Assembly: GCA_016792935.1 (NCBI GenBank)
Contig: JAEUJS010000249.1
Coordinates: forward strand, 1 to 64,000
Origin: Archangium sp.
Lineage (GTDB): Bacteria > Myxococcota > Myxococcia > Myxococcales > Myxococcaceae
DNA length: 64,000 nt
Direction: 5' to 3'
A model generated the notes under the pieces. The model saw only the letters and a list, made by a program, of their open reading frames with translations. It ran no database searches and had not been told where the DNA came from. The translations under genes and the position numbers were made by a program. Numbering within the stretch: position 1 is the first letter of the stretch; every line of letters begins with the position of its first letter. Below are positions 2,341 through 61,566 of this stretch, piece after piece.

Positions 2341-2378
2341 CGCGCGCGGGATGGTTTCACGTGAGGTAAGAGCAGGCC

Positions 2379-3884
2379 ATGGCGCTTTCACCTCCCGTCG
2401 CTGACAGTGCAGACATTGGTTTGATTGGCCTTGCCGTGATGGGCCAGAACCTGGCGCTCAACATCGCCGACCACGGGTACAAGATTGCGGTCTTCAATCG
2501 CACGGGCGCGGTGACGGAGAAGTTCGTCGCCGAGTCTCGTCACGCGAACGTGGTTCCAGCGCTCGAGCTGAAGGACTTCGTGCGCGCCATCAAGCGGCCG
2601 CGACGCATCGTGATTCTGGTGAAGGCGGGCACCGCGACTGACGCCGTCATCGACGGGCTCGTGCCGTTGCTCGAGAAGGGCGATGTGGTGGTCGATGGAG
2701 GCAACGCGCTCTTCACCGACACGATTCGTCGCGAGAAGGCGCTGACCGAGAAGGGGCTGTTCTTCGTCGGCTCCGGTGTGTCGGGTGGAGAAGAAGGTGC
2801 GCGGCTCGGCCCGTCGCTGATGCCGGGCGGTCGGGTGGAAGCGTGGAAGTTGCTCGAGCCGGTGTGGCGCGCGATTGCGGCGAAGGTCGATGAAACGACG
2901 GGGAAGCCGTTGCCGGGTGGAGCTCCTGGGAAGCCGGTCGTCGGAGGCGTTCCGTGCACCACCTACATCGGCGCGGACGGTGCGGGGCACTACGTGAAGA
3001 TGGTGCACAACGGCATCGAGTACGCCGACATGGAGCTCATCGCCGAGGCGTTCCACGTGCTGACGGCCGTGCTCGGCATGTCGGTTGATCAAACGGCGAA
3101 GGTGTTCAGTGAGTGGAACACGGGCGAGCTCGATTCGTTTCTCATCGAGATCACCGCCGAGGTCTTGAAGCACCGTGACGTGGTGACGGGAAAGCCGTTC
3201 GTCGACGTCGTGCTCGACGCCGCGGGCCAGAAGGGCACGGGGAAGTGGACGAGCACGTCGTCGCTCGATCTCGGCGTTCCGAGCGCGACGATTGCCGAGG
3301 CGGTGTTCCAGCGATTCCTCTCGGCGCGCAAAGAGGAACGCGTGGCGGCGTCGAAGGTGCTGTCCGCGCAGAAGCAGGCCCACTCACTGGGAGTGACCGT
3401 CGAAGCGGTGCGCGACGCGCTGTACTGCTCGAAGTTGTGTGCGTACGCGCAGGGCTTTCAGTTGATGGCGGCGGCGGCGGCGGAGCACAAGTGGACCCTG
3501 GATTTCGGAGCCATCGCGCAGATCTTCCGCGGCGGTTGCATCATTCGCGCGCGCTTCCTGCAGAAGATTACCGAGGCGTACGCGCGGAACCCGGCGCTCG
3601 CGAACCTGTTGATGGACCCGTACTTCACCGAGGCGGTGAAGAAGGCCGAGAGCGGCTGGCGCAAGGTGGTGGCGGCGTGCGCGCTCGAGGGCGTTCCGGC
3701 GCCGGCGTTCTCTTCGGCGCTGTCGTACTTCGATGGGTACCGGTCGGCGTCGTTGCCGGCGAACTTGATTCAGGCGCAGCGTGACTTCTTCGGAGCGCAC
3801 ACCTTCGAGCGCGTCGATCAGCCGCGCGGAAAATTCTTCCACGTCGATTGGCTGGATCCGAAGCGGCCGCAGCAAGACGCATGA
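2379..3884 (+). CDS. gnd: 6-phosphogluconate dehydrogenase, decarboxylating
   Basis: Oxidative pentose phosphate pathway enzyme that converts 6-phosphogluconate to ribulose 5-phosphate and CO2 with reduction of NADP+. The N-terminal Rossmann segment [19 protein letters not shown] (residues 13-31) is typical. The substrate-binding [11 protein letters not shown] lies at about 132-142, and the catalytic lysine region [15 protein letters not shown] is near residue 207. At 501 aa it is slightly longer than the usual 470-485, mainly because of a Pro/Gly-rich loop (about 170-190) just before the lysine motif. The protein is expected to be cytoplasmic and homodimeric. The start ATG has a GGTAAGAGCA stretch upstream. 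No other pentose phosphate genes are adjacent. Confidence 0.97.
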
Positions 3885-4076: not shown

Positions 4077-5516
4077 TCAGCGCAGCGCTTCGAGCTCTCT
4101 CAGCAGTGCCACGCGCGTGTCTTCACTCACGCCGAACACGCCATTCGGGATGGCGAGCATCGAGAGAATCGCTTCGCGGCTCTTCGCGCCGCCGGCGTCG
4201 AGCGCGGCGAGGGTGTGGCCTGCCGACGACGCGAGATCGGGGCCGAGGCGCTCGAGCAAACGCACGCTCTCCTCGGGCGTCAGGCCGAGGCTCGCCGTCG
4301 CGCGCGCGAAGTACGTCGCATCGGACTCGTGGGTGCTGAGGAGCCACGACTCACCGAGCGTAGCGAGGCGCTGCACCTGCTCGGGTGAGAAGCCGGCTTT
4401 GGCCAGCTCGCCGAACGACGCCGGGTTGCCGCGCGAGATGGTCTCCGCGACCGCAGAGTCGATGCCCAGCTCGGCGAGGCGCGCCGACATGTCGGCCACG
4501 CGCGCTTCGTTATCGCGCCACGCGCCGACACCGCTGGCTACCAGCGACACCGCACCGGCGGCGAGGCTCACCGGCGCGCTCACCGCCACGCCCGCCACCT
4601 TCATCACGCCCTGCGTGACGAGCACTCCGCTGGCGGCGAGGCCTGCGTAGTCTTCCGGCTGGCCATCTTTCAGCACGCGGTCGAGGAACGTCTTCCCGTC
4701 GACGAGCCCACCCACGACACCGAACGCGCCACCCGCGCGCTCGGCCAGCGACTTGAAGCGCGGAATCAACTCGGCGACGCCCGCTACTTGCTCCGCCACC
4801 GCGGCGCCCATCGACACGGTGCCGGCGCTGATGCCGCTGAGCGTCTCCTTCAGCTCGGGCGAGCCGGTCGGAGAGAGCGCGACGTGCTCCTCCAGCGCCA
4901 GCGCTGCGTCTTCGAGCGCGCGGCGGGTGAGCGGCGCGCCCTGCATCACCGTCTCGTAGGCTTCCGGCTGCGGGTGGTACGCGCGCACGTCGGCTTCCGC
5001 CTGCGCGAGCCGTCCGGTGTTGTCGGCGACGTAGCTGGCGAGCTCTTGCGCGGCCGCTGTCGCCTCGGCGTAGGCCGGCTCGTCAGCGCGGAAGTCATCG
5101 GCGTAGGCCTGGAGTTCCTCGGTCGACAGAGCGTGCTCGAGGTGTTTCAGGTGCTCGGCCAGCGTCGTCTCGGAGGCCTTCACCTTCTCGTTGGCCGCAG
5201 CGAGCGCCTCGGTGCGGGTCAGCACGCCGAGCTGCACGTCTTGAATCGTCTTGATGGCGTCGAAGCCGCGCTGCTCGACCTCCGCGGGGCTCTTGGCCGC
5301 GACCACTGGTGTCGTGAACTTCGCCGGAGTCGCGCCCACGGGCTGGAGGCTCGGCGAGCTGAAGCTGCTCGTGCCGCGCAGGTTCTGCAGGTTGCGCTGT
5401 GCGCGCCGGTCGAGCGGCGTGGTCTTCACGGGCTCCGGTGCCCGCGGAGTCTCTGCGCGACGGGTGGTGGTGCTCGCGGTCGTGCTCCGGGTCTCGGTGG
5501 TCGATTTCACGGTCAT
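4077..5516 (-). CDS. Hypothetical protein with glycine/alanine-rich core
   Basis: 479 aa, not recognised. The N-terminus (1-60) is Thr/Arg/Pro-rich and looks disordered. It is followed by alanine-rich helices with coiled-coil character (about 90-230), then a Gly/Ala/Val-rich hydrophobic stretch (about 230-320). The C-terminal 150 residues hold short HTH-like helical repeats such as FGELAKAGFSPEQVQRLATL. No signal peptide. The hydrophobic centre flanked by soluble ends could be a membrane-inserting segment, but this is a guess. The gene is convergent with gnd, with 192 bp between them. The ATG at 5516 follows an AT-richer leader. Confidence 0.75.
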   Translation of the reverse strand: MTVKSTTETRSTTASTTTRRAETPRAPEPVKTTPLDRRAQRNLQNLRGTSSFSSPSLQPVGATPAKFTTPVVAAKSPAEVEQRGFDAIKTIQDVQLGVLTRTEALAAANEKVKASETTLAEHLKHLEHALSTEELQAYADDFRADEPAYAEATAAAQELASYVADNTGRLAQAEADVRAYHPQPEAYETVMQGAPLTRRALEDAALALEEHVALSPTGSPELKETLSGISAGTVSMGAAVAEQVAGVAELIPRFKSLAERAGGAFGVVGGLVDGKTFLDRVLKDGQPEDYAGLAASGVLVTQGVMKVAGVAVSAPVSLAAGAVSLVASGVGAWRDNEARVADMSARLAELGIDSAVAETISRGNPASFGELAKAGFSPEQVQRLATLGESWLLSTHESDATYFARATASLGLTPEESVRLLERLGPDLASSAGHTLAALDAGGAKSREAILSMLAIPNGVFGVSEDTRVALLRELEALR

Positions 5517-5611
5517 GGTCGCCCAAGGACGGGGCAGACGCCGAACTGTCGCATCGAGACCTCAACATCCCAGAATCACGGTGGATTCGTCAGCTCGCGT
5601 CTTCGGATGCT

Positions 5612-6136
5612 CTACTTTTTCGGACGCGGGCGGAGCGCGGCCGCCATCGCCATCGCGGGACCCGGGCGCACCGTGTTCACCGCCTGACAATGCGTGCACG
5701 TCACGTTCTCAGTGCGGTGCTGCACGGCGGGCTCGGGCAACTTCGCTCCGCAGCGCGTGCACTTGAGGTCTCTCGCGGCGAGCTCTTCCTTCGCGAGCTC
5801 TTCGAGGCGCGCGAGCTGCTTCTTGCGAACGGCGTCATCGAACTCGTCGGCGGCGCGGAGAATCTCGGTCTCCAGCTCGCGGCCGAGGTCTTCGAGGTCA
5901 CGCTGCGCTTCGCCAATCTCCGCTTCGAGCTTCTTCCAGGCGGGGTCGATCTTGTCGCGCAGACCGAAGAGCCGGCCCTTCACTTCGTTGGTCGCCGCCG
6001 CGACGGGACCTGGGTCGATGACCTCGGTCGCGATGAGCTCGTCGAGGCCCGCGTCGGCTTCCGCCATGACTTCGCCGAACCGCGTGCGCACTTTTTCGAG
6101 GAAGGTCTTCCACCGCTGCACCGCTTCGTTGCTCAC
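5612..6136 (-). CDS. Coiled-coil zinc-ribbon protein
   Basis: 174 aa starting at GTG. GGAGGT lies just upstream (sense-strand bases complementary to about 6142-6149). The first 120 residues are strongly charged helices (coiled coil). The C-terminal part has a zinc ribbon with CTRCGAKLPEP and CTHCQAVNTV, two CxxC knuckles about 24 residues apart. It ends in a Lys/Arg-rich tail. No signal peptide. It lies directly downstream of another zinc-ribbon gene (6177-6716) on the same strand and is probably co-transcribed. Function unknown; a scaffold or nucleic-acid-binding role would be conjecture. Confidence 0.8.
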   Translation of the reverse strand: MSNEAVQRWKTFLEKVRTRFGEVMAEADAGLDELIATEVIDPGPVAAATNEVKGRLFGLRDKIDPAWKKLEAEIGEAQRDLEDLGRELETEILRAADEFDDAVRKKQLARLEELAKEELAARDLKCTRCGAKLPEPAVQHRTENVTCTHCQAVNTVRPGPAMAMAAALRPRPKK

Positions 6137-6194
6137 GAGACGACCTCCAGAATGAACGTCTTCACGACCGCACCGCTCACGAGACGACCTCGAG
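6131..6194. repeat. Short direct repeat spanning a stop and the next start
   Basis: A roughly 20-bp word, identical in 19 positions, occurs at 6131-6150 and 6175-6194 (offset 44 bp). On the coding strand each copy contains a GAGGTCGTCTCGTGAGC core. In the upstream copy TGA is the stop of the 6177-6716 gene. In the downstream copy GTG is the start of the 5612-6136 gene and GAGGT is its ribosome-binding site. It looks like a small tandem duplication that separated formerly overlapping genes. Confidence 0.7.
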
Positions 6195-6716
6195 CGACCC
6201 GCCGCAGAACGCGCAACTCAGCTCATCAGCGAGCCGCGGGGCGTGACACGCCGAACATCCGAGCACGTAGGCGGTCGCATTCAGCCCCTTGCCGTACTGG
6301 TGCTGCGCCGCGAGCGCCTTCGCCGCTCCGAACATGCCCTTCTTCTTTTCGGTCGCCTTCGCGCGGTAGTGCCCGAGCGCCTGGTCAGTGAAGCGATGCA
6401 CGCCATCTTCCATCGCGCGCGCCTGCTCAGCGGTGAGGGTCTTGCGCAGCGGCTCGAGCTGTTTCTTCGCCAGCATCGTGAAGTTCGCCAGACACGCGCT
6501 CACCTCGGGCAGCGGCGCTCCCCTGGTCTGCTGGTGTTCCTTGATGGCCGCGATGCGCGCGTCTTCTCCGAGCGGAGCGACGCCCAGCGACTTCAACCGC
6601 GCTGCCCACGAGTCGGGAAGTCCGCCCGGAGGCTCGACGTCGAGCGCGGCGTCGATGAGCTCGGTGAGCTCTTTGGTGAGGGCTGCCCAGGTGGAGAGGA
6701 ACGCATCTGCTGACAT
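6177..6716 (-). CDS. Zinc-ribbon protein, partner of the downstream gene
   Basis: 179 aa from ATG at 6716 (MSADAFLST...). Longer in-frame starts upstream would run through the divergent gene and are unlikely. The body is helical and ends in a compact zinc ribbon, CSACHAP (about 149-155) and CAFCGG (about 169-174). No signal peptide or membrane segment. It is transcribed with the zinc-ribbon gene at 5612-6136 and is divergent from the DUF2378 gene with 37 bp between starts. Not recognised beyond the metal-binding tail; function unknown. Confidence 0.78.
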   Translation of the reverse strand: MSADAFLSTWAALTKELTELIDAALDVEPPGGLPDSWAARLKSLGVAPLGEDARIAAIKEHQQTRGAPLPEVSACLANFTMLAKKQLEPLRKTLTAEQARAMEDGVHRFTDQALGHYRAKATEKKKGMFGAAKALAAQHQYGKGLNATAYVLGCSACHAPRLADELSCAFCGGSLEVVS

Positions 6717-6753
6717 GGTCGCGGAGCGTACTTTGGGCTCAACTTCGCTCCAC

Positions 6754-7308
6754 ATGCGTTCGGTTCCGGTGGGGGAACGACTCATCTTCGGCACGTCGGT
6801 CGGCGGAATGCTCCGCGCGCTCGGTGACGACGTCGACAAGCCCGAGGTGAAGAGCGCGCTCCTCGCCATCGGCATCGACCCCGGCCGACTGCTCCCCGCC
6901 TACCACGTGCCGGAATACGTGAAGCTCATGGAGTTCATCGGCGCGCACCGCTTCCCCACGCTGCAGGGCGACGCGCGAGATCGCGAGCTCGGCCGCGAGT
7001 TCATTCGCGGCTTCGGTCAGACGCTGGTCGGCAAGGCGACGCTCGCGATGGGCAAGGTGCTTGGCCCGATGCGCGCCACCATGCGGCTGACGCGCAGCAT
7101 GCGCACCGTGAACAACTACTCCACGTCGGGAGCCAATCAGCTCACCGCGCGCTCCGTCGAAGTGTGGTGCGAGCCGGTGTTGCGGCCCTGGTACTACGTC
7201 GGGGTGTTCGAGGAAGGCGGGCGCTCGCTGCACGGAGAGAGCTACACGGTCGAGCTGCGCAGCTTTCACAAGCAGAGCGAGCGCGCCGAGTTCCTCATCA
7301 GCTGGTGA
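6754..7308 (+). CDS. DUF2378 / TIGR02265 family protein
   Basis: 184 aa from ATG at 6754. ERLIFGTSVGGMLRALG at the N-terminus, the central LLPAYHVPEYVKLMEF and the terminal hydrophobic beta-rich part match the Myxococcales-restricted paralogous family TIGR02265 (DUF2378), whose members are typically about 180 aa. Their molecular role is unknown. The protein is soluble and cytoplasmic by composition. The family is present in many copies in myxobacterial genomes and is one of the best taxonomic clues here. It is convergent with the gene at 7315, with only 6 bp between the stops. Confidence 0.85.
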   Translation: MRSVPVGERLIFGTSVGGMLRALGDDVDKPEVKSALLAIGIDPGRLLPAYHVPEYVKLMEFIGAHRFPTLQGDARDRELGREFIRGFGQTLVGKATLAMGKVLGPMRATMRLTRSMRTVNNYSTSGANQLTARSVEVWCEPVLRPWYYVGVFEEGGRSLHGESYTVELRSFHKQSERAEFLISW

Positions 7309-7314
7309 CGTTCC

Positions 7315-7878
7315 TCAGAACCGGATGCCGAGGTTGATGTCGCCGCCCGGCGCGAGCAGCCGTTCCTTGTCGCCGTGCCGGTCGGTGCGGAAGAGGTGCA
7401 CGCCGAGCGCTCCGCGGATGTTGAGGTACACGCGCGGCGTCAGCTCGACCTGCCAGCCACCGTGCACCCACAGGCGGCCGGTGAAGCCGTCGAGCGTGCC
7501 GCCATCCCAGACGTTGAACTCTTCGTGTCGCCAGCCGAGGTGCACCGTGACGTCGAGGTGCAGGCCGTACGCGAAGAACTGCCGCCAGCCGAGCTTCGCC
7601 GCGATGAGGAACACCTTGCCGTAGCGGTCCGTCGGCCGCGTGATGGGGCCGAAGCTGAAGTCGGAATACAGCCCGGTGAGGAGCTCTCCGCGCAGCGTGT
7701 CTTCCGCAGGGCGGAGCAGCGGGAACAGCACCTTCAGCTCGGTGAGCCCGCCCGGGAAGATCGGCCAGAGGATGTTCACCTCGAAGGCAGGCGTTCGCGC
7801 GACTGGCTTCGGAGGCACGTCGGTCACTTCGGGAACGGCGAGCAACGACAGCGTGAGCACTGCGGAGACGAGAGACAT
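7315..7878 (-). CDS. Secreted outer-membrane-like beta protein
   Basis: 187 aa from ATG at 7878, giving a clear signal peptide (MSLVSAVLTLSLLAVPEV). The mature part is rich in alternating aromatic and polar residues (WRQFFAYGLHLDVTVHLGWR and similar). It ends in an aromatic residue (NLGIRF), as outer-membrane beta-barrels do. No named family recognised. The gene is divergent from a TetR regulator, and the space between them carries three operator-like palindromes. It is therefore the likely target of that regulator (inference). Confidence 0.75.
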   Translation of the reverse strand: MSLVSAVLTLSLLAVPEVTDVPPKPVARTPAFEVNILWPIFPGGLTELKVLFPLLRPAEDTLRGELLTGLYSDFSFGPITRPTDRYGKVFLIAAKLGWRQFFAYGLHLDVTVHLGWRHEEFNVWDGGTLDGFTGRLWVHGGWQVELTPRVYLNIRGALGVHLFRTDRHGDKERLLAPGGDINLGIRF

Positions 7879-7906
7879 GGGACGACACGGCTTTCTCCGG
7901 CCCGGA

Positions 7907-7964
7907 GTCAACGGTGTTGTCAACACTGTTGACCGGAAGGGACGGTCAGGTCAACACTGTTGAC
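7907..7964. promoter_or_regulatory. Three operator-like palindromes between divergent genes
   Basis: The 15-bp palindrome GTCAACACTGTTGAC occurs exactly at 7919-7933 and 7950-7964, 31 bp apart (about three helical turns). A third, degenerate copy (GTCAACGGTGTTGTC) lies at 7907-7921, overlapping the first exact copy. They fill the space between the outer-membrane-like gene (start 7878) and the TetR gene (start 7996). The simplest reading is a TetR operator array giving autoregulation and control of the divergent gene. Confidence 0.75.
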
Positions 7965-7995
7965 TCGGGAGGCGGAGAGCGCTGGGTTCGGGTGC

Positions 7996-8568
7996 ATGGA
8001 TGCCCGGGAGCGCCTGGTGGACGCGGCGCAGGACTTGATCGCGAAGAACGGGGTGCACGGCTTCTCGCTGCGAGAGGCGGCGCGGGCGGTGAAGCTCGAT
8101 CCCGCGATGGTGTACCGCTACTTCGAAGACCGCGACGACCTGGTGCGCGCGGTGGCAGATCGCGGCATCACGAAGTTGGCGAAGGCGATGCGCGCGGCGG
8201 AGAAGCGGGCGGGGTACCTGTCGCCCGTCGAGAAGCTGCGCATCTACGGTCGCGTGTACCTGCGGTTCGCGCTCAAGGAAGGCGACCTCTACCGCGTGAT
8301 GTTCGGGCCCGACCGCGGGCGCACGTTGCCGGGGGCTGAGACGCCGTTCGCGTTGCTGGTGCAGTGCCTGGTCGAGATTGGCGCGGCGCTGAACCAGAAG
8401 GTCGACCCGGGAAGAGCGGGAGCGTTGTGTTGGGCCGGCATGCACGGCGTCGCGATGCTCGCGCTCGACGGCGCCTTCGAGCGTACGCAGCCGGTGGCGG
8501 TCGAGGCGTTGGCCGAGTCGATGCTCGATGCGCTCATCGCTTCGGTGACCGCGCGCCCCACCCGCTGA
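7996..8568 (+). CDS. TetR/AcrR family transcriptional regulator
   Basis: 190 aa from ATG at 7996; an in-frame earlier start at 7960 would run over an operator and is less likely. The N-terminal helix-turn-helix is clear: RLVDAAQDLIAKNGVHGFSL, then REAARAVKLDPAMVYRYFED, residues about 5-50. The C-terminal ligand-binding part resembles the TetR_C_33 / WHG type. It is a DNA-binding repressor and probably dimeric. It is likely to bind the GTCAAC-type palindromes just upstream and to regulate itself and the divergent gene at 7315. The ligand is unknown. It is convergent with the hydrolase at 8573. Confidence 0.92.
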   Translation: MDARERLVDAAQDLIAKNGVHGFSLREAARAVKLDPAMVYRYFEDRDDLVRAVADRGITKLAKAMRAAEKRAGYLSPVEKLRIYGRVYLRFALKEGDLYRVMFGPDRGRTLPGAETPFALLVQCLVEIGAALNQKVDPGRAGALCWAGMHGVAMLALDGAFERTQPVAVEALAESMLDALIASVTARPTR

Positions 8569-51806: not shown

Positions 51807-52322
51807 TTAGCGCAGGCCGAGCGCCTGCTCCTCGACACGAATGCGCACGCGGAGAAGGAGCGCATTTCCAATCGTGAACACCACCGCGGTCAGCCACGCG
51901 CCGTGCACCAGCGGCAGCACGAGAAGTTCGAGGCACACGGCGACGTAGTTCGGATGCCGCACGAACTGGTACGGCCCGCCGCTCACCAGTTGCTCGCCCT
52001 TGGGCAACACGATGACGCGCGTGTTCCATCGAAAGCCGAGCGTGGTGATGGCCCAGTACCGCAGCAGCTGCGCGCCCACCGCGAGACCGAGCGCGATGAA
52101 GCCGAGCGCGCCCGGGAATTCGCGCGCGAACAGCCACGGCTCCGCGACGCACGAGATGAGGAACGCGGTGTGGAAGACCGTCATGAACGGGTAGTGGCCC
52201 TGGCCGTACTCGACCGCGCCGCGCTCGAAGGCCCACTTCGCGTTGCGCACCGAGAGTCGCAGCTCGACGAGCCGCTCGACGCCGACCAGCGCGATGAGTC
52301 CTGTGTAGAGCCACAGGCTCAC
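51807..52322 (-). CDS. Isoprenylcysteine carboxyl methyltransferase family protein
   Basis: 171 aa with four to five membrane helices. Signature SGGPYQFVRHPNYVAVCLEL (about 114-133) is the ICMT/PEMT-type SAM-binding motif (RHPxY), preceded by WAITTLGFRWNTRVI. Similar proteins (SrsB in Streptomyces, BpsB in Bacillus) O-methylate alkylpyrones or alkylresorcinols made by the adjacent type III polyketide synthase. That fits here, as the synthase lies upstream with a 361-bp gap. Inner membrane. Confidence 0.9.
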   Translation of the reverse strand: MSLWLYTGLIALVGVERLVELRLSVRNAKWAFERGAVEYGQGHYPFMTVFHTAFLISCVAEPWLFAREFPGALGFIALGLAVGAQLLRYWAITTLGFRWNTRVIVLPKGEQLVSGGPYQFVRHPNYVAVCLELLVLPLVHGAWLTAVVFTIGNALLLRVRIRVEEQALGLR

Positions 52323-52683: not shown

Positions 52684-53766
52684 TCACCATCGCAGCAGAA
52701 CCAACTCGGAGCAGAACCCCGGGCCCATCGCCATCATCAACCCGATGTCGCCTTTCTTCGCGACGCCCGAGTCGAGCAAGTCTCCGAGCACGTACAGCAC
52801 CGACGCCGACGACAAGTTCCCGACCGTGCGCAGCGACTCCCAGCTCCGCGCCAGCGCCGTCGGAGGCAGCTCGAGCGCCTGCTCGAACGCCTCGAGCACC
52901 TTCGGCCCACCGGTGTGTGCGACCCAGTGCGTCACGTCACTCCGCTTCAAGCCGTGCTTCTGCAGAAACCCATCGACGTTGCCGCGCACGTTGGTCAGCA
53001 CCATCTCCGGCACGCGCGCCGAGAGCACCACCTTGAACCCCGAATCGAGAAAGTCCCAACCCATCACGTCTTCCGTGTCTGGGTAGAAGACCGACTCGCT
53101 CGCCACGACGCGCGGGCCCACAGCAGTCGAATCGCCGCCGCGAATCACGACGGCGGCCGCTCCATCACCAAACAGCCCCGACGCGATGATGTTCGACAAT
53201 GAGATGTCGTCGCGCTGCACGGTGAGCGAGCACAGCTCGACCGACAACAGCACCGCGGTGTGCCCGGGAAACCCGCGCAGCAAATCACTCACGCGCGCCG
53301 TGCCCGCGACCCCGGCGACACACCCGAGGCCGAAAATCGGCAGTCGCTTCACGTCGGGCCGCAGGCCCAGCTTGTTCACCAGCCGCGCATCGATGCTCGG
53401 CGTCGCCAACCCGGTGATGCTCGTGAAGCACAGCGCATCGACGTCTTTGAGCTCGAGACCGGCCTTCTTCACCGCCGCGCGCACCGCTTCTTCTCCGAGC
53501 CGCACGGCCTCGCGAATCCACACCTGGTTGCGCTTCTCGAAGGTGTTGAGCGGAGGGTAGTCGGCCATCGGAATCGCCAGATGCCGCCCGCGCACCTGCA
53601 CCGAGCCGTGCAGCGCATCGACGCGGCTCTTGTTGAACGAGTGCCCGCCCTCGCGCCAATAGTCCTGCAGCCCCTGCGAGAGCTCGGCCTGCGAGTGGTA
53701 GTGCGGCGGCAGCGCGCGCACGACGGCGGCGACGACGGGTACGGGAGTGGTCACGGCGGTAGGCAT
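52684..53766 (-). CDS. Type III polyketide synthase
   Basis: 360 aa. Chalcone-synthase-like catalytic triad: Cys149 in FGLGCVAGVAGTA, His284 in WVAHTGGPK and Asn317 in TVGNLSSASV. The C-terminal GPGFCSELVLLRW is the usual end. It condenses malonyl units onto long-chain starters to give alkylpyrones, alkylresorcinols or related phenolic lipids in similar operons (SrsA, BpsA). Followed downstream by ICMT-like methyltransferase, GNAT and FAD oxidoreductase genes. Cytosolic homodimer. Product not deducible. Confidence 0.95.
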   Translation of the reverse strand: MPTAVTTPVPVVAAVVRALPPHYHSQAELSQGLQDYWREGGHSFNKSRVDALHGSVQVRGRHLAIPMADYPPLNTFEKRNQVWIREAVRLGEEAVRAAVKKAGLELKDVDALCFTSITGLATPSIDARLVNKLGLRPDVKRLPIFGLGCVAGVAGTARVSDLLRGFPGHTAVLLSVELCSLTVQRDDISLSNIIASGLFGDGAAAVVIRGGDSTAVGPRVVASESVFYPDTEDVMGWDFLDSGFKVVLSARVPEMVLTNVRGNVDGFLQKHGLKRSDVTHWVAHTGGPKVLEAFEQALELPPTALARSWESLRTVGNLSSASVLYVLGDLLDSGVAKKGDIGLMMAMGPGFCSELVLLRW

Positions 53767-53803: not shown

Positions 53804-56254
53804 TTACTGCGTGCGGCGCAGAATCTGGCCATTGCTGCCCACCGCGAAGGTGACCGGTGTCGTGCCGCCAACCATCGTGATGTTGTTGAGCGAGTAGTAG
53901 TTCGGCGTCTCGGTGTAGTTGAGCGAGCCATCGAAGCGAATCGCGACGCCGCTCGAGCCGACGAGGAGGATGGTGTTCGGGTCGATCATCACCAGCCCGT
54001 AGTAGTCAGCCCAGCCGTCGGACAAATCAGTCCACATCCCCATCTCGTATTTGAGAATCGTCGAGCTCGGGCCGACACCCCACAACACATTGCCCATGCC
54101 GTACATCGCGTAGACGTGATTGGTGGTCGGGAGGGTCACCACCGTCCAGTTCATCCCGTCCCAGTGCCCCGCGAGGCCGTTGTCGCCGAGGCTCCACACG
54201 TCGTTCGCGGCGATGGGCCAGATGGTGTTGTAGTCGTTGGTCGTCATGGCGCCGGTGTTCACCGTCATCCAGCTGGTGCCCATGTAGCGCATCACCAGGC
54301 CATCCGAGCCCGAGGCCCAGATGTCGTTCGCCGACAAACCTTGAATGTCGTACAGCGGCCGCGGCGGAGCAGCCTGTGTGGTCCACGCCGAGCCGTTCCA
54401 CCGGCGCATCACGCCATCACCCACCGCCCAGACGTTGTTCGCCGCGCTGCCCCACACTGAATAGAAGTCGTTGGTGGTGTTGCTGGTGGTGCGCGTCCAG
54501 TTGGTGCCGTCGAAGTGCAGCAACGTTCCGCGCGCGCCCACGGCCCACACGTCGTTCGCCGCGAGCGCGAACACTCCGTACAGCGTGTCGAACGGGCCCG
54601 TGGTGGTCGGTGTCCACGACGCGCCACTGAAACGCATCGTCGCGCCGCCGATGCCGGTGGCGATGACGGTGCCGCCCGCGCCGGTCACGCTGCGCCAGTG
54701 CGCGTACGCCGGCGAAGTCACCTGCGACCACATCGTGCCGTTGAAACGCAACACCACGCCGTCGTCACCGACGACCCACACGTCGTTGGGTCCGGTGCCC
54801 CACGTTCCGTAGAAGGTCGGGTTGGTGGGCAACATCTGCGACTGCACCATCGTGCCGTTCCACCGCAGCACCACGCCGTCGCCCGCGATGAACACCGTGG
54901 TCGGGTTCGCGGCCCACACCGCGCCGAGCGCGTTCGATGTGCCGCTCGTCACCGTGGACCACATCGTGCCGTTGAAGCGGCGAATCATTCCGTTGTCGCC
55001 GACGGCCCACACGTCGTTCGCGGCGGAGCCCCCGATTCCGTAGAAGTCCTGCGTCACTCCGCTCATCACGGTCAGCCAGCTGGTCCCGTTGAAGCGGCGC
55101 ATCACGCCTGCCGAGCCGACCGCCCACACGTCGTTCGGCGCGCTGCCCCACAGCCCGAAGATGGTCTCGCCCGTGCTGAGCGAGCCCGCCAGCCACGAAG
55201 CGCCGTTCCAGTGGAGAATCACGCCGTCACGCCCCGCCGCCCACACGTCCGTCGCTGAGCTGCCCCACACGGCATAGAGGTCGTCACCGACAGGGCTGAT
55301 GGCGCGCGACCACGTCGACCCGTCCCAGTGCACGATGGTGCCGATGTCGCCGACGGCCCAGACGTCGTTGGCGCTGATGGCCCACGTGTCGTTGAGGCTG
55401 TTGCCTTGCAAGATGGGGTTGCTCCAACACCAGTCGTCGTTCTGCGTGCAAATCGGGCCGCCGCCGCAGACGTTGGGCGTGACGTTGCCTCCGCAGGTGA
55501 GCGGCGCCATGCACGAGCCACACATCGCGGTGCGCGGCACGTTGCAGTTGTCGACGTTGGTGTACGAGCCGCAGTCTTTTCCGAGCCGCGAGCAGAAGCC
55601 CTGGTCGGTCTCCGGTGGACACGTACCGCACACGTTCGCCGCGCCGCCGCCTCCGCAGAACTGACCGTTCATGCACGTGCCGCAATTCGCGGTGCGCATC
55701 ACGCCGCAGTTGTCGTTCGCGGTGACCATGTTGCAGTTCTTCATCAGCCGCGTGCAGAACTGAGGGTCGCTCTCCGGCGTGCACATGCCGCCGCCGCCAG
55801 CCGAGCCGCCGCCAGTCGCTCCGCCCCCCGACGCGGAGCCGCCACCGTTCGCGGATCCACCGCCGCTCGCACCGCCGCCTCCAGTCGCACCGCCTCCAGT
55901 CGCACCGCCTCCAGTCGCACCGCCTCCAGTCGCACCGCCGCCGCCGATTGGATCTCCACCGCCCGTCGCCGCACCACCACCGCTCAGGCCTCCGCCACTG
56001 CCTCCGCCGGTGCCGCCGCCGCTCGCCGCTCCTCCGCCAGCCGTGCCGCCGCCGAGCGGAGCATCAGGTGCGACGCACTCTCCATTGCGGCACTCGTGAC
56101 CATCGACGCAGTCAGCGGTCGTGGCGCATGCGAAGCGTTGCGAAGACAAGTCAGGCGGCGTGCACGTACAGCCCGCCAACGTGAGCGCGAGCACCGCCGG
56201 CAGCCATGCGAGATGGCAACTGCGAGTTGCCATCTGGAGCTGCGCGACCTTCAC
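53804..56254 (-). CDS. Lipoprotein with Gly-rich linker, Cys-rich domains and about 14 propeller repeats
   Basis: 816 aa from ATG at 56254 (overlapping the upstream stop; a second Met is at 56233). Lipobox LALTLAGCTC, then CATTADCVDGHECRNGEC, a Gly/Ala/Ser/Thr linker (about 65-155, 15-bp DNA units), and three Cys-rich segments with FCTRL/FCSRLGKDC patterns. Residues about 290-816 contain around fourteen 35-45-residue repeats, most carrying NDVWAVG-like motifs and a WNG/FNG turn (for example AANDVWAVGARGTLLHFDG). Fourteen would suit two seven-bladed propellers. Outer surface, ligand unknown. Co-translated with the TPR-membrane protein upstream. Confidence 0.88.
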   Translation of the reverse strand: MKVAQLQMATRSCHLAWLPAVLALTLAGCTCTPPDLSSQRFACATTADCVDGHECRNGECVAPDAPLGGGTAGGGAASGGGTGGGSGGGLSGGGAATGGGDPIGGGGATGGGATGGGATGGGATGGGGASGGGSANGGGSASGGGATGGGSAGGGGMCTPESDPQFCTRLMKNCNMVTANDNCGVMRTANCGTCMNGQFCGGGGAANVCGTCPPETDQGFCSRLGKDCGSYTNVDNCNVPRTAMCGSCMAPLTCGGNVTPNVCGGGPICTQNDDWCWSNPILQGNSLNDTWAISANDVWAVGDIGTIVHWDGSTWSRAISPVGDDLYAVWGSSATDVWAAGRDGVILHWNGASWLAGSLSTGETIFGLWGSAPNDVWAVGSAGVMRRFNGTSWLTVMSGVTQDFYGIGGSAANDVWAVGDNGMIRRFNGTMWSTVTSGTSNALGAVWAANPTTVFIAGDGVVLRWNGTMVQSQMLPTNPTFYGTWGTGPNDVWVVGDDGVVLRFNGTMWSQVTSPAYAHWRSVTGAGGTVIATGIGGATMRFSGASWTPTTTGPFDTLYGVFALAANDVWAVGARGTLLHFDGTNWTRTTSNTTNDFYSVWGSAANNVWAVGDGVMRRWNGSAWTTQAAPPRPLYDIQGLSANDIWASGSDGLVMRYMGTSWMTVNTGAMTTNDYNTIWPIAANDVWSLGDNGLAGHWDGMNWTVVTLPTTNHVYAMYGMGNVLWGVGPSSTILKYEMGMWTDLSDGWADYYGLVMIDPNTILLVGSSGVAIRFDGSLNYTETPNYYSLNNITMVGGTTPVTFAVGSNGQILRRTQ
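55876..55935. repeat. Perfect 15-bp tandem repeats in a lipoprotein gene
   Basis: Four consecutive exact copies of CGCCTCCAGTCGCAC, encoding a GATGG-type pentapeptide on the other strand. Copy-number changes would keep the frame and vary linker length. Confidence 0.85.
56211..56235. repeat. Palindromic dispersed repeat, copy at 56 kb
   Basis: Perfect palindrome with 11-bp arms AGATGGCAACT and its complement around GCG. It overlaps the signal-peptide region of the 53804-56254 lipoprotein. The flanking AGCCATGC (56202-56209) is also shared with the copy at 28501. Confidence 0.75.
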
Positions 56255-57285
56255 GGAAAGCTCCCGCTCACCAACACGCCACCGGGCGACGGAGCGAGGC
56301 TCACCTTCGTGCTCGTCTCCGGACCACCGACGATGAACATCACGACGCCCGCTGCGGCCAGCGCGCCCGCGCTCACGAAGAGCACGTTGGCGACCGTGCC
56401 GTCGGCCGCCGCCTGCACGCCGCGCGTCTGCGCCTCGCGCTCGGTGATGCCGGTGATGCGGCCATCGGCATCGCGCGTCGCGCCGTTGATGGAAGCGAGG
56501 GCCGAGCTGCTCTTGATGCCAAAATACGCACCGACGCCCGCGGCGACCGCGGCGCCACCGACGACGAAGTACGACGCCGTGCGCACGCCGCCACCCGACG
56601 ACGACGACTTCCCGATGACGGGGTCGACCACGGGCGAGGGCGGAGGAGGCGGCGTCGCCGACACCATCGGCGCGGGTGGCGTCGCCACCAACGGAGCGCT
56701 CTCACTGCCGAGCACCACCAGCTGCGCCTCGTTGTCTCCAAAGAGCTCGGCCCACCACTGCACCTCGGTGCCATCGACTGCAGTGCTCGCCTTGCCACCT
56801 TCGAGCGGCGCGTTCCGCAGCTGCCAGCTCCCGCTGATCAACACGTGGAGGACCAGCGTGCGCGCCTGCTTGAGCGGATCCTTCGGAACCTCGACGTTGA
56901 GCGCGACGACGCGGCCGTCTTTCGCGGTGGGCTGCAGCTGTTTGATTTCCAACGCGCCGGACTCGGCGACCGACGACGCCGCCTCGAGGTACGGAGTCGA
57001 GACACGCGGCGCGAAGTCTTCGCCGAGCTTGTGCGACGGGTCGAGCACCAGCAGCTCGGTGAAGGCGTCCTTCGCGGGGCCGGCCTGCCGCTGCTGGCCG
57101 GCGGCGATGCCCTGCAGTTCGAGAATTCGCAGCAAGCTCGCGCGATCGAGCCCCTTTGCGGCGCGCGCCTTCTTCAGGGCGGCCTGCGCCTCGGCGTATT
57201 TGTATTTCGTCATCAGGGCTTCGGCGGTCTTCAACTCCGCGGGAGCGACCGACAACGTCGCCACGAGCACGAGCGAGAAAGGCAT
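56251..57285 (-). CDS. Secreted TPR-like protein with C-terminal membrane segments
   Basis: 344 aa. N-terminal signal-like segment (MPFSLVLVATLSVAPAE), helical TPR-type repeats (about 18-100, LKTAEALMTKYKYAEAQAAL), a beta domain, and a Pro-rich hinge (about 200-225, SATPPPPPSPVVDPV). Two C-terminal hydrophobic segments follow (SYFVVGGAAVAAGVGAYFGI and VLFVSAGALAAAGVVMFIVG). This is the same plan as 20478-21218. Its stop overlaps the lipoprotein start by 4 bp, so both are made together. It is divergent from the kinase (96 bp). Function unknown. Confidence 0.8.
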   Translation of the reverse strand: MPFSLVLVATLSVAPAELKTAEALMTKYKYAEAQAALKKARAAKGLDRASLLRILELQGIAAGQQRQAGPAKDAFTELLVLDPSHKLGEDFAPRVSTPYLEAASSVAESGALEIKQLQPTAKDGRVVALNVEVPKDPLKQARTLVLHVLISGSWQLRNAPLEGGKASTAVDGTEVQWWAELFGDNEAQLVVLGSESAPLVATPPAPMVSATPPPPPSPVVDPVIGKSSSSGGGVRTASYFVVGGAAVAAGVGAYFGIKSSSALASINGATRDADGRITGITEREAQTRGVQAAADGTVANVLFVSAGALAAAGVVMFIVGGPETSTKVSLAPSPGGVLVSGSFP

Positions 57286-57381
57286 GCGCGCGACTCTACT
57301 CCCGCAGTCTCGACGTACCTGATCTCAAGCGCTCCAGAAGTGGTCCGCTCTGTATGCCGGGGTAAGCTCCGCTCCGACCGC

Positions 57382-59127
57382 GTGGATCAACCCAATTCCC
57401 CACTGCCGACCGACGGGTTGCAGCCCATCGAGTTCGGCAAATATCGGCTCATTCGCCGCATCGCCGTCGGGGGCATGGCGCAGATCTGGCTCGCGGTGCA
57501 GCGTGGCCCGCACGGCTTCGAGAAGACCGCGGTGCTCAAGGTCATCCTCCCCGAGCTCTGCACCAACGACGAGTTCGTCCAGATGTTCCTCGACGAAGCG
57601 CGCCTCGCCGCCGGGCTCGACCACAGCAACGTGGTGCGCATCTACGACTTCGGCGAAGTGAACGGTCAGTACTACCTCGCGATGGAACACCTGCCCGGTG
57701 AAGACCTCGCGAGCATCATGCAGTCGAGCAAGCGCGCCGAGCGGCTGGTGCCCATCGCCACCGCGTGCGACATCATCGTGGGAGCGGCGACCGGTCTGCA
57801 CTTCGCGCACGAGCTCACCGACGCGAGCGGCAAGGCGCTCAACGTCGTGCACCGCGACGTCAGCCCTTCGAACATCATCGTCACGTACCACGGCACCGTG
57901 AAGCTGGTGGATTTCGGCATCGCGCGCGCGGAATCGAACATCACCAAGACCGCGGCGGGCACCCTCAAGGGCAAGGTCGCTTACGTCTCTCCGGAGCAGG
58001 CCGCTGGTGACGTCCTCGATCGCCGCAGCGACGTCTTCGCGCTCGGCACCGTGCTTTACGAGCTCGTCACGCTGCAGCGCCCGTTCAAGCGCGAGAGCGA
58101 CCTCGCGACGTTGAAGGCGGTGGTGAGCGCGCAGATTCCGGTGCCGAGCAGCATTCGGCCGCAGGTGCCTCCGGCGCTCGACGCCATCATCTTGAAGGCG
58201 ATGGAACGCGACCTCGACGCTCGCTACCAGAGCGCCGCCGAGCTCGCCGACGCGCTCGCGGGGTTCCTGGTGAGTCAGCAGTACGTACGCAGCGAGCGCG
58301 CGCTCGCGGACTTCATGAGCGGTCTGTTCGAAGCGGACCGCCGCCTGGGCAAGTTGCGCATCGCCCAGACTGCACTCGAGCCCTCGGCGAAGACGCCTTC
58401 CCAGCTCAAGCACCTGCCACAGCACCTCTCGCCGATTCGCTCGCACCCGACGTTGCCGGCGGCCGACCTCGCGCCTGCGCCGCCGCCCGCTGCGCCACCG
58501 CCAGGCACGACGGGGTCGATGCCCATCGTGGAAGGCGTGGACGTCTCGATTCATACCGCCGACGAGTCGGCTGGGGTGATGGCCACGCAGGTCGGAGAGC
58601 CCACGCTCGCGCGGATGGATCGCGAGCGTCGTCAGCGCACGGCCATCGGCGTCGGAGTCGTCGTGGTGCTCCTCGCCGCCGTCGCGTGGTTCGCGACCCG
58701 AGGTCCGAGCGAAGACGAGAAGAAGCCGCCCGTGGTGGTGGTGAAGAAGGACCCGCCGCCTCCGAAAGATCCGCCGAAGGAACCAGTGAAGGATCCGCTC
58801 GTGGCAGTGGTCGACCCGAATCAGCCGAAAGATCCGCCTCCGGTCGAGCCTCCGAAAGATCCGCCTCCGAAAGATCCGCCGCCTGCGAAGGATCCCGTGC
58901 CGAAGCCGAAGCCCGTCGCCGCGAAGGGCAAGCTCACGCTCGACACCACGCCGTACACGGAGGTCTTCCTCAAGGGGAAGAAGCTCGGCGACACGCCGCT
59001 GGTCGACGTCTCGTTGCCGCCCGGCATCCACGTGCTCACGCTGGTGAACGACGCGAAGGGCATCAAGCGCGCGATCGAGATCGAGATCGCCGCCGGAAAA
59101 ACGACGACGAAAAAGCTGAAGCTCTGA
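57382..59127 (+). CDS. Ser/Thr protein kinase with PEGA tail
   Basis: 581 aa from GTG at 57382. Hanks-type kinase: glycine loop IAVGGMAQIW (about 28-37), catalytic Lys at 53 (AVLKVI), HRDVSPSNII (about 157-166, Asp159), DFGIAR (177-182), and the VSPEQAAGDVLDRRSDV activation segment. The core ends by about residue 300. A Pro/Ala linker follows, then a TM helix (RTAIGVGVVVVLLAAVAWFA, about 415-435), a Pro/Lys-rich stretch, and a C-terminal PEGA domain (VFLKGKKLGDTPLVDVSLPP). A myxobacterial-type transmembrane kinase. It is convergent with the graspetide precursor gene. Confidence 0.95.
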   Translation: MDQPNSPLPTDGLQPIEFGKYRLIRRIAVGGMAQIWLAVQRGPHGFEKTAVLKVILPELCTNDEFVQMFLDEARLAAGLDHSNVVRIYDFGEVNGQYYLAMEHLPGEDLASIMQSSKRAERLVPIATACDIIVGAATGLHFAHELTDASGKALNVVHRDVSPSNIIVTYHGTVKLVDFGIARAESNITKTAAGTLKGKVAYVSPEQAAGDVLDRRSDVFALGTVLYELVTLQRPFKRESDLATLKAVVSAQIPVPSSIRPQVPPALDAIILKAMERDLDARYQSAAELADALAGFLVSQQYVRSERALADFMSGLFEADRRLGKLRIAQTALEPSAKTPSQLKHLPQHLSPIRSHPTLPAADLAPAPPPAAPPPGTTGSMPIVEGVDVSIHTADESAGVMATQVGEPTLARMDRERRQRTAIGVGVVVVLLAAVAWFATRGPSEDEKKPPVVVVKKDPPPPKDPPKEPVKDPLVAVVDPNQPKDPPPVEPPKDPPPKDPPPAKDPVPKPKPVAAKGKLTLDTTPYTEVFLKGKKLGDTPLVDVSLPPGIHVLTLVNDAKGIKRAIEIEIAAGKTTTKKLKL

Positions 59128-59214: not shown

Positions 59215-59823
59215 CTACTTCGAGCCGCTTCCTTCTTCGCCCACGGCCTGCGTCGTCACGGGACCCGGACCGCCGCCTTCTTCACCGACGGCCATGGTGG
59301 TGAACGTGGGCGGCTTGCTGGGCTTGCCGCCACCCTCTTCACCGACCGCGAGCGTGGTGATCGGCGGGGGCTTGCCAGGCTTGCCCGGCTTGTTGCCACC
59401 CTCTTCACCGACCGCGAGCGTCGTGATCGGCGGTTTGCCGGGCTTCTGACCGCCCTCTTCGCCCATCGCCAGGGTCGTGAAGTCACCACCGGGAGGCTTC
59501 GGCTTGGTCGGCCCTTCTTCTCCCATCGCCATCGTCGTGAAGTCGCCACCGGGCGGCTTGCTCGCGCCTTCCTCGTGGAGCGCCTTGGTGGTCACGGCGC
59601 CGGGCGGCTTGCTCGACCCTTCCTCGTGGAGCGCCTTGGTGGTCACGGTGCCGGGCGGCTTGCTCGACCCTTCCTCGTGGAGCGCCTTGGTCGTCACGCC
59701 CCCGGGCTTGCCGGGCTTCTTGCCGCCCTCTTCGTTGAGCGCGAGGGTGGTCAGCTTCTTGTCTTCTTTCTTCTTCGCTTTTCCGAGCTCGTACTTCGGC
59801 AGGCTCCGGGGCTTGATTTTCAC
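59215..59823 (-). CDS. Graspetide precursor peptide with ten TTxxxxEE core repeats
   Basis: 202 aa from GTG at 59823, with GAGGAG six bases upstream. Leader-like start MKIKPRSLPKYELGKAKKK (1-19), then ten cores at about residues 25, 44, 61, 78, 96, 116, 134, 156, 175 and 190: TTLALNEE, three TTKALHEE, TTMAMGEE, TTLAMGEE, two TTLAVGEE, TTMAVGEE, TTQAVGEE. Spacers are Gly/Lys/Pro/Ser. TTxxxxEE is the core motif of plesiocystin-type graspetides, in which an ATP-grasp ligase joins Thr hydroxyls to Glu carboxyls by ester bonds. The ligase is divergent 79 bp away. An in-frame upstream extension to 59904 is discussed in the findings. Confidence 0.9.
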   Translation of the reverse strand: MKIKPRSLPKYELGKAKKKEDKKLTTLALNEEGGKKPGKPGGVTTKALHEEGSSKPPGTVTTKALHEEGSSKPPGAVTTKALHEEGASKPPGGDFTTMAMGEEGPTKPKPPGGDFTTLAMGEEGGQKPGKPPITTLAVGEEGGNKPGKPGKPPPITTLAVGEEGGGKPSKPPTFTTMAVGEEGGGPGPVTTQAVGEEGSGSK

Positions 59824-59902
59824 GCGGTGCTCCTCGAGGAACGACGAGAGGTAAAACGACGGGCGGAGAGTACATTCGCCCCGCTCCCACGTCACCTCAA
59901 CC
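59824..59902. promoter_or_regulatory. Divergent control region of the graspetide locus
   Basis: 79 bp between the precursor start (59823) and the ligase start (59903). It contains the precursor's GAGGAG ribosome-binding site (59830-59835). Plus-strand TACATT (about 59871-59876) is a possible minus-10 element for the ligase, but no minus-35 box is clear. The region is in frame with the precursor upstream of GTG. Confidence 0.5.
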
Positions 59903-60874
59903 ATGCGGGTTGGACTCTTTGGCACCGACGATGATCTCCAGGTCCACGCCGTGGCGAGGGAAGTGCGCGCGCTCGGCGCCGAAGACGTGCTGATTCGCAG
60001 CGACGCGCTCGACGAAGGACTGCCGCTCAGCGAGCTCGATGGCCGCTTCATCTACCGCGGCTCGGACCTCACCGACCTCGAGGGCTTCTACCTGCGCAGC
60101 ATTCCCGCGCCGTACGCGCCGTCGTTCGAGCGCGACGATGGCGAGCTCGTCCTCTACGAGGACTGGTTCATCCACTACATGCAGGAACGCGAGCGCGCGT
60201 CGTACTTCGTCGCGTGGCTGCTCTCGCTCCAAGACCGTGGAGCGCGGCTGATCAACCCACCGCACGCGGGCAGTGTTCTTCAATACAAACCGTTCCAGCT
60301 CGAGACGCTGCGTCGCGCGGGAGCGACCGTGCCGCGCACGTTGCTCAGCAATGATCCGCTCGCGGTGCGCGCATTCCAGAAAGAAGTCGGCGACGTCATC
60401 TTCAAGCCGCTGATGGGAGGCGCCATCACGCGCTCGCTCTCCGAGGTCGACGACGACGAGCTCGACGCGGTGCGGAACGCGCCGGTCATCTTCCAGGAAC
60501 GGATCAACGGAGACGACTTGCGCGTGATGTTGGCGGGCGACGAGATCGTCTCGTGCGTCGCGATTCGCACGCCGGAGCAGCACCTCGATTTTCGCGATGA
60601 CCCGGTCTACTCGGGCGGTGACGCCGCGTACGAGCCGGTGACGCTCCCGGACGCAGTGGTCGCGCAATGCCGAGCAGCGGCGAAGAAGTGCGGGCTCGAG
60701 TTCGCGGGCATCGACATCAAGCGCGCGACCGATGGGCGCTTCGTGTTCCTCGAGCTGAACAGCTCACCCATCTACCTCGACGTGGAACTCAAGTTGGGTC
60801 ACCCGATTTCGCGAGCGATCGCCGAATTGGTGGTCGGGCGGCGCCAAAGTGCGCGAAGGTCCGGCGCGCCATGA
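59903..60874 (+). CDS. ATP-grasp macrocyclase (graspetide ligase)
   Basis: 323 aa, the length of MvdD/PsnB-like enzymes (about 320-330). It begins with a pre-ATP-grasp strand MRVGLFGTDDDLQVHA. ATP-grasp landmarks: VIFKPLMGGAI (Lys168), FQERINGDDLRVML (198-211), AGDEIVSCVAIRTPE, and the metal/ATP site GIDIKRATDGRFVFLELNSS (269-288, Asp271, Glu284 and Asn286). Expected to activate Glu side chains of the precursor as acyl phosphates and form ester links to Thr hydroxyls. Cytoplasmic. Divergent from the precursor. Its stop overlaps the lipoprotein start (ATGA at 60871-60874), so the lipoprotein is co-translated. Confidence 0.93.
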   Translation: MRVGLFGTDDDLQVHAVAREVRALGAEDVLIRSDALDEGLPLSELDGRFIYRGSDLTDLEGFYLRSIPAPYAPSFERDDGELVLYEDWFIHYMQERERASYFVAWLLSLQDRGARLINPPHAGSVLQYKPFQLETLRRAGATVPRTLLSNDPLAVRAFQKEVGDVIFKPLMGGAITRSLSEVDDDELDAVRNAPVIFQERINGDDLRVMLAGDEIVSCVAIRTPEQHLDFRDDPVYSGGDAAYEPVTLPDAVVAQCRAAAKKCGLEFAGIDIKRATDGRFVFLELNSSPIYLDVELKLGHPISRAIAELVVGRRQSARRSGAP

Positions 60875-61566
60875 CTCGTCCGTTCGTTTCGCTCCTCATC
60901 GCGTTCGCCGTGCTCGCTGGTTGTGGGCCCGCCACTCCGGAGCTGGGCAAGTTGATCAGCCCGGTGCTCACCGCGCAGCGTCGCAACGGCGGTGACCTGC
61001 AGGTCATCCTCACCTACGACAACACGCGCACGGCGTGCGGCGCGGTGCAGAACCTCCGCGCGACGCTCGATGGGCAGAACGTCGCGGCGTCTGCGGGCTC
61101 GTTCGATCCGATGGCGAAGACGGAATCCGAGAAGTGCCAATTCCCGGGCTTCTTGATCAAACCCGACATGAAGAGCACGCCGCGGGAAATCATCTTCACC
61201 GATGACGTCACCACGATGAACATGACGCTCACCACGCTGAACCTCGGCACGTCGGTGCCCGACTCTCCGCCGGCGACGTTGCGTTCCGGGTACATGCTGC
61301 GGTGGCTCAATTCGCTGCCGCCCGAGGGCACGACTTCCTACAAGGTGACCTTCACACCGATGGGCGGAGCGGAGGCCACGTGGACCGAAGGCACTTCGCT
61401 CGGCTCGACGCTGACCTCGGCGGTGCCGACGCAGACGGTGTCCGCGAGTGGAACGGTCGCGTTGACGTGGATCGTGAACTCCATGGTCACGAAGTGCGAA
61501 GTGGCGACCGCGTGCACGGCGACGATTCAGGGCGCGGCGAACTTCCCGGCGGTCGTGCAGCCCTGA
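60871..61566 (+). CDS. Lipoprotein coupled to the graspetide ligase
   Basis: 231 aa from ATG at 60871. Lipobox FAVLAGCGP. The mature part is beta-rich with cysteines near 51, 87, 211 and 216 and short strands (SYKVTFTPMGGAEATWTEGT). No protease, ligase or transporter motif. It is translationally coupled to the ATP-grasp gene. It could mature, display or bind the peptide at the envelope, or be unrelated. It is convergent with the TPR gene at 61582 (15 bp between stops). Confidence 0.8.
   Translation: MTRPFVSLLIAFAVLAGCGPATPELGKLISPVLTAQRRNGGDLQVILTYDNTRTACGAVQNLRATLDGQNVAASAGSFDPMAKTESEKCQFPGFLIKPDMKSTPREIIFTDDVTTMNMTLTTLNLGTSVPDSPPATLRSGYMLRWLNSLPPEGTTSYKVTFTPMGGAEATWTEGTSLGSTLTSAVPTQTVSASGTVALTWIVNSMVTKCEVATACTATIQGAANFPAVVQP

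Follow-up and report, generated by a model that had tools for sequence, protein, structure and literature searches.

Plesiocin, the group 2 graspetide of Plesiocystis pacifica, is made from the precursor PsnA2, on each repeat of which PsnB installs two lactones (PMC9484694); it inhibits serine proteases with a potency that rises with the number of cyclized motifs (PMC13097080). Group 2 loci often include an NHLM-type transporter, groups 34 and 35 often have long precursors with repeating motifs, and group 35 loci hold only a ligase and a precursor (PMC13097080). Corallotide (CorABCD, group 15), described as restricted to Corallococcus, is formed from a long repeat precursor by a related ATP-grasp ligase and contains isopeptides of the KxxxD type in which Lys is hydroxylated; an oxygenase is its partner (PMC13097080). 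In the multi-core precursors of the microviridin/AMdnA type an ATP-grasp ligase acts on several cores per precursor (PMC5934393), and these precursors have a different core motif, a caged topology and a leader that carries PFFARFL.

Within the window, by which we mean the whole 64,000-nucleotide stretch of Archangium sp. DNA that was analyzed, a repeat precursor on the minus strand and a divergent ATP-grasp ligase on the plus strand form a two-gene locus (Table 1). Like plesiocin, it joins a single PsnB-like ligase to tandem cores in one precursor, and the core octapeptide is nearly identical. It differs from plesiocin in having ten cores rather than four, a ligase about 34% identical to PsnB that belongs to a subclade of its own, a leader that is short, rich in Lys and without a match to that of PsnA2, and no transporter nearby. 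In holding only ligase and precursor it resembles the loci of group 35. With corallotide it shares the myxobacterial host, the long repeat precursor and the related ligase, whereas KxxxD cores and an oxygenase are both missing from it; with the microviridins it shares several cores per precursor. We consider it highly probable, from these sequence relationships, that the two genes are a plesiocin-type ligase and its substrate. The sequence-only reading had called the locus plesiocystin-type, and sequence, fold, tree and core uphold the graspetide class, the core type and the macrocyclase; the compound name has to be corrected to plesiocin, as "plesiocystin" was not found in the literature searched.

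Table 1. Features of the graspetide locus, in positions of the window.
Feature	Position	Strand	Remarks
Precursor gene	59215..59823	-	GTG start (likely), 202 aa = 24-residue leader + ten cores
GAGGAG, likely precursor RBS	59830..59835	-	6 nt before GTG, read directly from the sequence
Leader MKIKPRSLPKYELGKAKKKEDKKL	59752..59823	-	[KR]YE[LV]-type motif common to relatives
Core 1 TTLALNEE	59728..59751	-	
Core 2 TTKALHEE	59671..59694	-	
Core 3 TTKALHEE	59620..59643	-	
Core 4 TTKALHEE	59569..59592	-	
Core 5 TTMAMGEE	59515..59538	-	
Core 6 TTLAMGEE	59455..59478	-	
Core 7 TTLAVGEE	59401..59424	-	
Core 8 TTLAVGEE	59335..59358	-	
Core 9 TTMAVGEE	59278..59301	-	
Core 10 TTQAVGEE	59233..59256	-	
Divergent intergenic region	59824..59902	.	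79 bp; both promoters expected here
ATP-grasp macrocyclase (PsnB-like)	59903..60874	+	323 aa
Lipoprotein-like ORF	60871-61566		ATGA overlap with ligase stop

The ligase has the length and the four landmark residues that had been claimed for it, and K168, D271, E284 and N286 do not vary among 24 aligned relatives. Graspetide maturase models rank first in NCBIfam (TIGR04187 at 1.1e-34, below its curated cut-off), and the top PDB sequence match is the plesiocin cyclase PsnB (7drm, E 8.9e-46; next match 1.4e-23). With an AlphaFold model made from 24 sequences (pLDDT 88.9), Foldseek ranks 1 to 14 were all PsnB chains, followed by the graspetide ligases MdnC, AMdnB and PruB; RimK and ArgX came further down. 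As the enzyme also matches the Pfam RimK and GSH-S_ATP models above cut-off, and the NCBIfam RimK models weakly, one could take it for a RimK-like glutamate ligase or another non-graspetide amide ligase lying beside an unrelated repeat protein. This is extremely unlikely: graspetide models and structures outscore those of RimK, RimK structures fall below all graspetide ligases in Foldseek, the same repeat precursor goes with the enzyme across the whole clade, and the genome encodes its RimK-like protein elsewhere, in a gene that is separate and distant.

A tree of 42 rows places the window ligase with 24 others in a clade supported at 99/99. PsnB lies outside this clade, in a loose grouping with a different set of Myxococcaceae ligases (L032-L035). 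The deep part of the tree has long branches and is unreliable. Two members of that set have a single-core TTMAVGEE precursor adjoining the ligase. The tree check that had been proposed for the ligase came out on the graspetide side: the genome's RimK-like protein (L003) stands apart from the enzyme, on a long and insecurely placed branch. Viral contigs held no relatives of the ligase.

The ten TTxxxxEE cores reported were borne out; they lie in one minus-strand frame and are separated by Gly/Pro/Lys-rich linkers of 7-14 residues. When the residues of the ORF were shuffled, the motif occurred 0.03 times on average and at most twice in 20,000 trials, as against ten times in the actual sequence. 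Pairwise comparison of the Thr/Thr/Glu/Glu codons of the ten cores gave 94 synonymous differences and no nonsynonymous one; since every codon difference is synonymous, the four residues to be linked are held by purifying selection at the protein level. On the opposite strand an ORF of 125 aa (59477-59854, +) is open and is favored by a simple GC3 heuristic, and were it the coding frame the repeats would be its GC-rich shadow. Such a shadow does not explain purely synonymous variation at the T/T/E/E positions of the minus frame, whose core moreover matches that of the crystallized PsnA2 and is retained together with a leader in the precursor frame of single-core relatives, and we regard the chance that the opposite strand is the coding one as practically negligible.

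A profile of 14 leader plus first-core sequences was compared with the PDB (177,635 sequences). The best match was the PsnA2(14-38) crystal peptide GKGGPYTTLAIGEE, whose core TTLAIGEE aligned with TTLAVGEE; the E value of 0.012 is weak, owing to the shortness of the peptide, but this was the sequence to be expected among all those compared, and the next match stood at 0.42. One relative (L014) has exactly TTLAIGEE. The match takes in the core with a few preceding residues and leaves out the YELP region; this YELP-like leader motif is conserved in the relatives. The precursor by itself matched nothing in Pfam, NCBIfam, PHROGs or the PDB. The GTG at 59823 is likely, judging from the sequence, to be the start; a microviridin-like stretch upstream of it, SFYLSSFLEE, was considered as a leader and dropped, as it overlaps GAGGAG and the relatives start near the YELP motif. 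No sigma-70-like site was found in the 79-bp intergenic region.

Across 183 pooled cores, the first Glu (position 7) is present in all and the second (position 8) in all but one, and the cores differ chiefly at two sites, position 3 (M, L, K or Q) and position 5 (V or L). Lysine at position 3 goes with leucine at position 5 in 35 of 41 cores, compared with 22 of 138 for the other residues at position 3; since related sequences and duplicated cores are counted together here, the p-value overstates independence. The pairing is suggestive of two linked core types, K3 with L5 and L/M3 with V5. Of the Lys and Arg residues in the core regions, 179 of 261 precede Pro.

How unusual is a precursor of ten cores? 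Among 96 genomes (Myxococcaceae by the named MAGs L004-L006) about one quarter have a close ligase, 57-78% identical to that of the window when the window's own is set aside, and in about 20 genomes ligases of the clade are paired with the same core type while the neighbors differ. The precursors of these relatives have one core (L015, L017, L020), two (L021, L022, L024, L027, L028), nine by the strict motif (L014), 11 (L009), 13 (L019), 14 (L012, L018), 15 (L023, L025), 17 (L013) or 18 (L011), and where a contig end intervenes at least eight (L007), at least five (L008) and at least six (L010). High core numbers are not generally artifacts of assembly, as the 15 cores of L025 come from a genome in two contigs (G068). 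Ten cores are thus an ordinary, mid-range number among close Myxococcaceae relatives, and the description of the locus as an enlarged member of its class is true against the four cores of plesiocin and fails within its own clade, which spans 1 to 18.

Units 2-4 of the window precursor share 81-96% DNA identity, a sign of recent tandem duplication. As the assembly is fragmented (740 contigs, 81% complete) and two units share 96% of their DNA sequence, the figure of ten could be off by about one unit. No second TTxAxGEE array was found in the genome of the window; the single other match to the pattern is isolated, and a control pattern gave 2.

Several further precursors and ligases came to our attention among the genomes compared. 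The close-clade ligase of L026 (G040, 2358-3554, +) has a precursor with many TxAxPEE cores (TMAYPEE, TLAIPEE), mostly missing the first Thr of TTxxxxEE, so that each core would possibly receive a single ester rather than two. In L063 (G087) a long leader is combined with cores of the TLAIPEN type. In L064 (G181, 4739-6829) two adjacent precursors have long N-terminal domains and repeats of two kinds, VTSQAVGEEDG and DDVVTIQPIEE; a nearby ligase shares 42% identity with that of the window, and part of the array reads N.

Others carry KxxxD cores. The window's own genome has a second, corallotide-like graspetide locus (L002:856-3052, G000 contig 142) with a precursor of repeated KIRADEP cores, a ligase and a PF13640 oxygenase, and a congener (G009, L091) has a similar locus with KIRADDP cores. 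In the distant locus L059 (G182 contig 20, about 5045-8148, minus) one precursor, cut by the contig end, holds both TTxxxxEE and VIKVRADDP cores and is accompanied by two different ATP-grasp ligases in tandem. One of these is 45% identical to the window ligase; the other is of the type accompanying KxxxD precursors and groups with that of L002 at 100/99. A 2OG-Fe(II) oxygenase-like gene is also present and resembles the oxygenase gene that adjoins the KxxxD ligase in L002. By its gene content L059 looks like a plesiocin-corallotide hybrid pathway, and it may be more novel than the locus of the window. The pairing of two core types with two ligases supports assigning each ligase type to its core.

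Comparison of 13 loci by their ORFs revealed no conserved gene besides the ligase and the precursor. The span first proposed for the locus, 59215-61566, also took in a downstream lipoprotein, read as coupled; the precursor and ligase belong to it, and the lipoprotein does not. The ATGA overlap with the ligase stop may couple translation of the two genes in this genome, and on that ground the lipoprotein might be thought a functional partner for immunity, anchoring or export. However, its relatives (52-56% identity) occur in only four other genomes, all congeneric, and never beside a graspetide ligase: three of the four have no close ligase, in the fourth the two genes are on different contigs, and no relative of the ligase carries this lipoprotein downstream. 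The association is not conserved, and a role as partner appears very unlikely; by this distribution we treat the lipoprotein as a coincidental neighbor, outside the system.

On the other side of the locus, the long ORF at 56206-59127 (+) has a Ser/Thr protein kinase domain, a true start well inside the ORF and, by eye, a Pro/Lys-rich segment before a PEGA-like tail; in the 13 loci it was not conserved beside graspetide genes. Farther away, ORFs resembling by eye a type III polyketide synthase (52684-53766, -) and an isoprenylcysteine methyltransferase (51807-52322, -) were noted. No exporter or leader peptidase adjoins the precursor or ligase. A search for Peptidase_C39, a family of exporter/peptidases, found none in the 81%-complete genome of the window and detected it in 8 of 14 reference genomes as a positive control, and the window leader has no GG cleavage motif and no visible signal peptide. 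Release and export of the product are presumed.

By analogy with the plesiocin pathway, the stapling chemistry is very likely to operate at this locus, and we infer leader recognition and ring formation as follows. The ATP-grasp enzyme would bind the short leader at the motif around YELG, as its homology to PsnB, and that of the precursor to PsnA2, suggests. Using ATP, it would phosphorylate the Glu side chains in each core; attack by the two Thr hydroxyls would then form a pair of nested esters, which would make every core a hairpin-like bicycle. Ten cores could thereby acquire up to twenty esters, with a mass change of about -360 Da, and the Gly/Pro/Lys linkers would keep the stapled heads apart.

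As the system is analogous to PsnB and plesiocin, we read the product, with its up to twenty esters, as a multi-headed inhibitor of serine proteases, an assignment that we hold to be somewhat better than even. Position 3 of the core (K versus L/M) may set the protease preference of each head, and the K3/L5 pairing is suggestive, at the level of sequence, of two types of inhibitor head. The stapled peptide could conversely be a structural or surface material, repetitive, Gly/Pro/Lys-rich and cross-linked. The product is long and repetitive, with up to 18 cores in relatives and linkers rich in Pro and Gly; most Lys and Arg residues of the core regions lie before Pro, which would protect the array from trypsin-like proteases and leave it in one piece, and the related corallotide was inactive in a small panel and showed collagen-like behavior (PMC13097080). 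Members of the same clade with one or two cores are nevertheless hard to see as material, and the core is nearly identical to that of plesiocin, a protease inhibitor. We judge a material role to be unlikely, and prefer inhibition.

The locus is a further member of the known plesiocin-type graspetides and brings to them a clade of such loci, and core number alone is no mark of a new class. With naturally occurring precursors of 1 to 18 cores under closely related ligases, the clade offers a series in which to study how a cyclase handles many cores, and to see if potency scales with valency in the way reported for plesiocin. As most Lys and Arg residues precede Pro, an uncut chain would better survive, and it is conceivable, as a tentative and rather doubtful proposal, that the clade produces chains of stapled heads that stay intact and resist proteases, that the heads have two specificities (K-type and L/M-type), and that rapid gain and loss of cores adjusts their number and mix. 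If true, these chains would be evolvable inhibitors with many heads, directed at several proteases simultaneously, perhaps proteases from prey or competitors.
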